This document shows, one piece after another, positions 8,845 through 10,823 of a stretch of DNA of 64,000 bases. The translations under genes and the position numbers were made by a program. Source of the DNA: Rhodohalobacter sp. SW132 (GTDB lineage: Bacteria > Bacteroidota > Rhodothermia > Balneolales > Balneolaceae); assembly GCF_003390325.1 (NCBI RefSeq), contig NZ_QUOK01000009.1:124001-188000 (forward strand). Direction: 5' to 3'. Position 1 is the stretch's first letter. Every line of letters starts with the position of its first letter. Under the pieces are notes generated by a model. The model worked only from the letters and a program-made list of their open reading frames with translations, did no database searches and was not told the DNA's origin.

Positions 8845-10131
8845 TCAAATCTCCATTATTTCATCCCAGCGTGTTGTGTAGCGTTTGCTCAGGTGTTCCT
8901 GTTTCATTTGCCAGGATTGGTTGTTTCCCACACCTGTGCCGGCTACACTCATCGTTTGACTGCCATACCTTGCATTTACAGAATCCATGCACTCCATCAA
9001 ATCGTGCTGTTTTTGTGTGTAGGCTTGTTCACTAAAGAGATTAGTCTGAATTTCCGCCTCCGGAACAATTCCGGTTAGCATCACCCACGCTTTTTTGTAC
9101 TTCTTACAGGGATCAAACAGACGATTCACCACAGACACAGCGGCCATAGCAAGGGTTGTTGTATCTGCAGTTGGGTTCGGCAGAGACACATCGATTCCAA
9201 ATTTGTATGGTTTTCCAGGATTTTCATATTTATTGGTCACAAGAGTTACACAGATGTTACTCGCAACGGATTTTTGGGCACGTAGTTTTTCCGCTGCCCG
9301 ACTGGCGAAGAGCGTCACTGCCTCCCGCATATCGTCCACATTTTCTACCGGAGTGCCAAACGATCGTGAACTTAGTATTCCTTTCCTCGGCTCTGTTGTC
9401 TGTTCAACGGTTTGGCATGGTCTTCCGCGAAGTTCCCACACCGTTCGGAGTCCGGTTACTTTCATGGTGCTGCGAATCCATGCATCGGACTGACGGCTTA
9501 GCTGCCAGGCGGTATCAATCCCGTATTTGTGCAGAGTTTTCGAGTAATTTCTGCCAACGCCCCAGACATCATCAACCGATGTTCTCTTTAACACTTTTTC
9601 TGTTCGATGTTCGCTATCGAGTACCAGTACTCCGTTCAGAGCCGAGAACTCTTTTGCCGTTTCATTGGCTATTTTCGCCAGCGTCTTCGTTTTTGCGATT
9701 CCAACCGATACAGGAATACCGGTCCAGCGCAGCACCCGCTGACGGTTCCATTGACCATACTCGCTGAGTGAGCTCATGTATGCGGATGAAAGTTCAGCAA
9801 ATGCCTCATCAATGCTGTACACTTCCAGGTTTGGCGTGCAGGTTTTAAGCGTCTCCATAACACGGCTGCTCATATCTCCGTAGAGTGCATAATTTGATGA
9901 CCTGACCGCTATGTTGTGTTGTCGAATCATCGGGCGGACTTTGAATTCCGGAATCCCCATCGGTATGCCGGCTTCCTTTGCTTCGGCCGAACGTGCAATC
10001 ACACAGCCATCATTATTTGATAAAATTACAACCGGACGGTTAATTAATGACGGATCAAATACCCGTTCGCAGGAGGCGTAAAAATTGTTACAATCGATCA
10101 GCGCAAAAAAGGATGGCGCAGCATTTTCCAT
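8845..10131 (-). CDS. umuC: UmuC, Y-family translesion DNA polymerase V catalytic subunit
   Basis: 428 residues from the ATG at 10131. A longer in-frame start at 10311 would run into umuD and adds 60 residues unlike any UmuC. The palm motifs are intact: the metal-binding Asp13 in [11 protein letters not shown] and the Asp108-Glu109 pair in YSIDEAF. The finger/thumb segments [17 protein letters not shown] and the C-terminal little-finger region follow in the usual order, and the length is normal for UmuC (about 420). The enzyme copies past DNA lesions as part of the SOS or damage response. It follows umuD by 44 bases in the same operon. What is odd is its partner: UmuD here lacks the protease dyad, which raises the question of how this polymerase is activated. 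Confidence 0.95.
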
Positions 10132-10175: not shown

Positions 10176-10598
10176 TTAAATGCAGGAGTGAATGATATGG
10201 GATACCACTCCCCACATCAGCTCTTCGGCCGGCCGGTCTCTGTCCAGATGAATAAACCGGTTGCCAGACAACTGAAGAGACCATCTTCGACCTCGGTTCC
10301 ATAACCTGCAAACACGATGCTCACCCTCTACCCTCGCGATAACAAGCGAGTGATGTTTAAATGCCAGCGATCGGTCCACGACGAGAAGATCCCCATCAAA
10401 CACCCCCAATTCTTCGTCATCTGAACCTTTCACCCGGCAAAAAAACGTAGCGGATGGATTCCGAACCACGTGCTCCTGAAGGTTTAATCGATCCTCAAGA
10501 TGATCTGTTGCCGGAGATGGAAAACCGGTCTCCGTAGAACGTTTTATCTTAAGCCTGTTTTTCTGCAAGCTTCCCGGTTGTTGTGCCTGTGCAATCAT
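10176..10598 (-). CDS. umuD: UmuD-like protein lacking the catalytic Ser-Lys dyad
   Basis: 140 residues. From GFPSPA (25-30) through the S24 fold it aligns without gaps to E. coli UmuD (139 residues): NPSATFF (48-53), [10 protein letters not shown] (66-75) and [11 protein letters not shown] (90-100) keep the same numbering. At the position of the nucleophile Ser60 there is Asp60 (GSDD replaces GDSM), at the general base Lys97 there is Cys97, and the Cys24-Gly25 self-cleavage site is Thr24-Gly25. Both substitutions are in the DNA as given. The beta-fold and dimer-forming segments look intact, so the gene is not obviously decaying. It has a strong AGGAGG ribosome binding site eight bases before the ATG, unusual for this window. 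It probably acts as a non-cleavable UmuD/UmuD'-like subunit for UmuC (inference). LexA-like repressors share the fold, but there is no DNA-binding domain here. Confidence 0.9.
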
Positions 10599-10610
10599 AG
10601 TGATCCTCCT

Positions 10611-10633
10611 ATATATTTATATGTAAAATATAT
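10611..10633 (-). promoter_or_regulatory. Candidate operator/promoter palindrome upstream of umuDC
   Basis: The arms ATATATTT (10611-10618) and AAATATAT (10626-10633) form an 8-bp inverted repeat with a 7-base spacer, directly upstream of the umuD ribosome binding site. The position suits an SOS operator, but the very AT-rich sequence could form such a palindrome by chance, and no second copy is present in the window to support it. Confidence 0.25.
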
Positions 10634-10823
10634 GTGTGATGGCGGCACTTTGCAACTTATTTTACCAAATTCCGGCAAACCGGGTTATGAAAACTGCATG
10701 ATGATTTCTGTAACACAATGGCCGGCAGTTTTCAACCGATCCACTGCTAAATACTTTAAGCATTCACTTTGTTTTGATGTATCTTCATCAAAATTGTTAA
10801 TCGACTTTTTAGTTACTGAGAAT

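Follow-up and report, generated by a model that had tools for sequence, protein, structure and literature searches.

Loss of the self-cleavage residues of UmuD throughout the Balneolaceae and a predicted cleavage-independent subunit for Pol V

In E. coli, full-length UmuD holds Pol V off until it cleaves itself, and textbooks present this self-cleavage as a post-translational safety catch that holds back Pol V mutagenesis. The reaction requires the N-terminal arm of UmuD to lie across the active site. The window, the 64,000-nucleotide stretch of DNA analyzed here, carries beside umuC a umuD homologue that a preliminary description had recognized as having no Ser-Lys dyad and an altered cleavage site. 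The locus raises the question of how such a polymerase is controlled, either by regulation without cleavage or by activation through another protein.

The features of the locus are collected in Table 1. Residues were numbered after E. coli UmuD, the sequence of which was checked against NC_000913.3, and alignment to it bore out Asp60, Cys97, and Thr24-Gly25 as first described. The alignment, given earlier as ungapped from residue 25 onward, is so to about residue 108, and a one-residue gap is needed near the C-terminus. In profile searches, the protein matched Pfam Peptidase_S24 (3.6e-13) and NF007621/PRK10276 (1.6e-29), the latter with 102.3 bits, just below the 110-bit cut-off that many other Balneolaceae UmuDs pass. 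The top sequence matches in the PDB were E. coli UmuD (8gmt) and UmuD' (1umu), and a predicted model, with a mean pLDDT of 77 and much of the arm below 50, returned 1umu, 1ay9, and 8gmt as the top Foldseek matches. The model predicts a UmuD' fold, in agreement with the earlier claim that the fold is kept, and leaves the position of the arm unplaced. By homology and context the protein is a UmuD, and the right label for it, judged from the sequence, would be UmuD-family, non-autoproteolytic.

The gene lies in an operon arrangement with umuC, 44 nt separating the umuD stop from the umuC start, which is most likely the ATG at 10131 and not the upstream TTG of the mechanical open reading frame. 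The strong ribosome binding site and the linkage to an intact umuC, both part of the preliminary description, were found as claimed. The window UmuC retains its catalytic D6, D101, and E102 (E. coli numbering), a QTNLF stretch stands at the site of E. coli QLNLF, and a position scan revealed seven UmuC alignment columns specific to Balneolaceae. The genome holds four Y-family polymerase matches, at C1:640312, C1:964283, C1:934210, and window positions 8845-10131, and only the window copy adjoins a UmuD.

Table 1. Features of the umuDC locus, in window coordinates.
Feature	Coordinates	Strand	Basis or remark
umuC, intact Y-family polymerase with C-terminal tail (DUF4113)	8845..10131	-	
umuD, 140-aa UmuD homologue without Ser-Lys dyad	10176..10598	-	open reading frame; profile, PDB, and alignment matches
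Cys97 codon, position of catalytic Lys97	10308..10310	-	read directly; alignment
Asp60 codon, position of catalytic Ser60	10419..10421	-	read directly; alignment
Thr24-Gly25 codons, where active UmuD has its Ala/Cys-Gly cleavage bond	10524..10529	-	
N-terminal arm, residues 1-24, without Pro16/hydrophobic-17/Val22 docking motif; ends in family-conserved Glu23-Thr24	10527..10598	-	
Ribosome binding site AGGAGG, 6 nt 5' of umuD ATG	10605..10610	-	read directly
Candidate LexA box TCACACATATATTTTACATA, 21 nt 5' of umuD ATG	10620..10639	-	18/20 to published Balneolaeota consensus

The window UmuD bears none of the three sequence marks of an autoproteolytic UmuD, namely the Ser60-Lys97 dyad, the Ala/Cys-Gly bond, and the arm docking motif (Pro16, hydrophobic 17, and Val/Ile22), the last being missing from arm residues 13-24. 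Since Ser60, Lys97, Ala/Cys24, and the docking motif are all absent, RecA-stimulated self-cleavage to UmuD' is not expected from the sequence of this protein.

UmuDs for comparison were drawn from the rest of the class, from the phylum, and from a named collection spanning many phyla. Ser60 and Lys97 were both present in 154 of the 162 UmuDs outside the Balneolaceae and a clade of the same phylum designated f26, a count that is not an unbiased frequency, the phylum sample being composed of the best-scoring matches and 38 selected low-scoring genomes. The sister family f2, in the same order as Balneolaceae, has a normal dyad. Residue 24 of the 154 dyad-bearing proteins was Ala in 152 and Cys in two. 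The change from Cys24-Gly to Thr24-Gly reported earlier holds for the window protein against E. coli, but Cys24 is not the usual state; on these sequences, the usual cleavage site is Ala-Gly, with E. coli the exception, and the real change would be from Ala-Gly to Thr-Gly.

Among 92 Balneolaceae genomes, umuD without internal stops was found in 40 and a broken copy in three, and residues were counted in an alignment of 39 distinct sequences. Lys97 occurs in none of them, position 97 being Arg in 26 and Cys in 13. Position 60 is Ala in 21, Asp in five, Gly in five, Glu in four, Ser in three, and Asn in one, such that Ser60 is lost in 36/39. Thr24 is found in 37/39, and Glu23 is kept in 92%. The window UmuD belongs to a 13-member subclade in which Cys97 is invariant; the three proteins that retain Ser60 are members of this subclade, and they too are without Lys97. 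No close relative with a normal dyad was found, and the possibility that the window copy is an isolated broken allele was ruled out by the family-wide absence of Lys97. The aligned sequences show the dyad loss to be fixed in Balneolaceae.

The docking motif has gone as well. Pro16 is present in 142/154 active UmuDs versus 1/39 from Balneolaceae, a hydrophobic residue 17 in 153/154 versus 4/39, and Val/Ile22 in 146/154 versus 11/39. If cleavage had been abandoned, joint loss of the dyad, the cleavage-site residue, and the docking motif would be expected, and at the level of sequence these three elements have been lost jointly, a modular loss of self-cleavage.

Catalysis might still proceed by another route, such as Cys97 serving as a nucleophile or a nucleophile shifted to Ser59, given that Cys97 is invariant in the subclade and residue 59 of the window protein is Ser. 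We regard this as very improbable: most family members carry Arg97, usually with Ala60, Ser59 occurs in only 4/39, no conserved general base was found in the alignment of 39 sequences, and the arm would still fail to dock.

Where dS was unsaturated, the core of Balneolaceae umuD gave dN/dS values of about 0.03-0.10, indicative of purifying selection. UmuD and UmuC occurred together in 38 genomes, 51 had neither, and three were discordant. Even in genus g3, where the two genes are unlinked and the genes after umuD are instead TetR-like and UbiB-like kinase genes, they are kept or lost jointly in 12/12 genomes. By these sequence measures umuD has been retained under selection together with umuC, which supports the earlier statement that a UmuD incapable of self-cleavage by known chemistry has nonetheless been kept with its polymerase. 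Internal stops do interrupt umuD in three g3 members (G012, G019, and G020), as would be seen were the gene decaying and functionless, but umuC is also absent or broken in these same genomes. With 40 genomes free of internal stops, the low dN/dS of the core, and a conserved LexA box, such decay is scarcely credible for the family; a pseudogene was ruled out by core dN/dS and conservation.

The candidate LexA box upstream of umuD was recognized by comparison with TTACACATATTTTWTACATA, the consensus published for Balneolaeota (PMC7739468). It outscores every other site on either strand of the 64 kb, of which the best reaches 15/20, and lexA of the same genome carries a predicted box of equal score (18/20). 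A comparable predicted box is found in most relatives in which umuC adjoins umuD and in none of the g3 genomes. LexA itself retains its Ser, Lys, and Ala-Gly, and recA is present in the genome. By its promoter box, the window umuD fits the Balneolaeota LexA regulon (PMC7739468). The word umuD is absent from the main text of the study of LexA in Balneolaeota published in 2020. At two g3 loci (L036, 1627-4094; L042, 1495-3962), umuD stands apart from umuC, is followed by the TetR-like and UbiB-like kinase genes, and has no usual LexA box. At L015 and L016 (G050 and G059), a LexA box precedes umuD, no umuC adjoins it, and the GFPSPA end has decayed to DYPAPV.

The arm itself persists. It is 22-30 residues long in all 39 Balneolaceae UmuDs and ends in a conserved Glu-Thr ahead of GFPSPA. 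In two closely related genomes having umuD without adjoining umuC, the GFPSPA-end motif has decayed to KKDYPAP or KEDYPAP, and this decay in a single lineage suggests that the motif serves UmuC. In a published model of Pol V (PMC11791011), the terminus of UmuD' lies close to the active site of UmuC, and by analogy the Balneolaceae Glu-Thr and arm might lie there also.

These sequence features incline us, with moderate confidence, to the reading that the window protein is a cleavage-independent, UmuD'-like Pol V subunit under LexA transcriptional control; the error-prone polymerase of the Balneolaceae is probably kept in check with no proteolytic safety step of the usual kind. DNA damage would activate RecA, and RecA would trigger cutting of the dyad-intact LexA, following which the umuDC operon would be derepressed, as the LexA box and published regulon imply. 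Full-length UmuD would already be active as made. With the docking residues, the residue at the cleavage site, and the dyad all lost, the arm would be unable to dock over what was once the active site, leaving the conserved ETGFPSPA end able to engage UmuC directly. UmuD would assemble with UmuC as made, with the arm presumably contacting the polymerase, so that LexA control and RecA binding would be the restraints. The post-translational delay of the E. coli type would be absent, and transcription and RecA binding to UmuC would limit the polymerase.

An engineered protein offers the closest parallel. E. coli UmuD 3A (T14A L17A F18A) is full-length and non-cleavable and, since its arm stays undocked, is regarded as a mimic of UmuD' (PMC5342242). 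Balneolaceae UmuD looks like a natural counterpart of 3A, being full-length, not expected to be cut, missing the hydrophobic docking residues, and with its arm presumably undocked. It differs in being natural and fixed in a family, whereas 3A is engineered and keeps the dyad. With E. coli UmuD/UmuD', the S24-family accessory subunit of Pol V, the window protein shares homologous sequence, the predicted UmuD' fold, the GFPSPA end, the umuC operon, and the LexA box, but it is without Ser60, Lys97, Ala/Cys24, and the arm docking motif.

Phage proteins provide a second comparison. HumD of P1 and gp26 of N15 are UmuD' homologues needing no arm removal, as is predicted for the window UmuD, and arm-less HumD is recorded as complementing UmuD'. 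We predict from the sequence that the window protein works like UmuD' or HumD, acting with UmuC uncut. N15 gp26 and the HK140 homologue are also without Ser60; these arm-less proteins (L270, 148-534, and L271, 148-537) have Thr near position 60 but retain Lys97, so that only part of the dyad is gone, as fits proteins with no need for cleavage. P1 HumD and N15 gp26 differ from the window UmuD in that they start at Gly25, are arm-less, and keep Lys97, whereas the latter has a 24-residue arm, its own ribosome binding site, and a chromosomal umuDC operon.

Two observations count against a UmuD'-like protein. In E. coli, S60A lowers UV mutagenesis, Ser60 loss alone being not activating (PMC3901139, PMC5342242); losing the dyad is therefore not in itself a sign that the protein is active. 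Furthermore, a useless arm should shorten, and its retention in 39/39 therefore weighs against this reading, as does its divergence, which relative to the core is about as fast in Balneolaceae (ratio 1.9) as in active UmuDs (2.3).

The retained arm would be accounted for if full-length UmuD were locked in a checkpoint-like role, restraining UmuC or the replisome and never becoming a mutagenic activator. E. coli S60A gives little mutagenesis, and full-length UmuD binds the alpha and beta subunits of polymerase III (PMC3901139, PMC5342242). Such a role seems quite unlikely here, for Leu17 and Phe18, which keep E. coli UmuD closed and arm-down, are lost, while the catalytic residues of UmuC and the GFPSPA end characteristic of UmuD' are kept; it would also be odd for a permanent brake to be co-induced with its polymerase.

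Another protease recognizing the conserved E-T-G-F site might instead remove the arm, activating UmuD by cleavage in trans. The Thr-Gly at the old cleavage position is kept in 37/39 Balneolaceae and 5/5 f26 UmuDs, Glu23 is well conserved in the family, and an active partner subunit can cut E. coli UmuD in trans (PMC5342242). We nevertheless judge this unlikely. A second, active UmuD was sought in the window genome and none was found, LexA being the one further protein there assigned to S24 with confidence. The arm has lost the docking motif by which it is presented to an S24 active site, and no protease gene was seen linked to umuDC. Between the alternatives posed at the outset, loss of the docking motif thus appears to favor regulation without cleavage over activation through another protein.

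Clade f26 (L154, L155, L156, L158, and L159) shows a similar state. Its UmuDs have Thr24, Ala60, and Arg97 in 5/5, docking motif residues in 0/5, and a re-evolved, conserved arm, and umuD adjoins umuC in four of the five, all of which recalls the Balneolaceae; the terminus differs, being TGFGAAA in f26 and TGFPSPA in Balneolaceae. UmuD by itself offers too few alignment columns for a tree to place the deep branches. In the UmuC tree, Balneolaceae form one clade (100/99) that groups with the active f2 (88/90), separate from f26. The best tree disfavors one shared origin, while a single clade of Balneolaceae and f26 was not rejected (p-AU 0.0785), and the dyad loss in f26 is likely, not proven, to be independent. 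We offer more tentatively, and with some doubt, the suggestion that two lineages independently replaced a cleavage-controlled Pol V with one in which the uncleaved, re-evolved UmuD arm, with its Glu/Ala-Thr-Gly-Phe end, is itself functional, reaching into UmuC close to the active site and setting polymerase activity non-proteolytically.

A whole family without self-cleavage, with polymerase and LexA control kept, would provide a natural test of the purpose of the catch. Mutagenesis is predicted to come earlier or be stronger after damage, and the roles of the UmuD arm as substrate and as partner are separated; to label Balneolaceae umuD genes as encoding an autoproteolytic subunit would be mistaken. 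In a search made up largely of papers free of subscription, we found no report of a non-cleaving Balneolaceae UmuD, and the accessible portions of the 2019 and 2026 Y-family polymerase surveys make no mention of one. The Synechocystis LexA, described as without nucleophile or cleavage bond in work cited in PMC2921402, is likewise an S24 protein that has lost its self-cleavage residues yet was kept, although it is a transcription factor and not a polymerase subunit.

UmuDs with partly or fully altered dyads also occur in scattered form (L120, L124, L125, and L182; L103, L123, L218, and L237). Their states are Glu60/Arg97, Ala60/Arg97, or Ser60 with Arg97.
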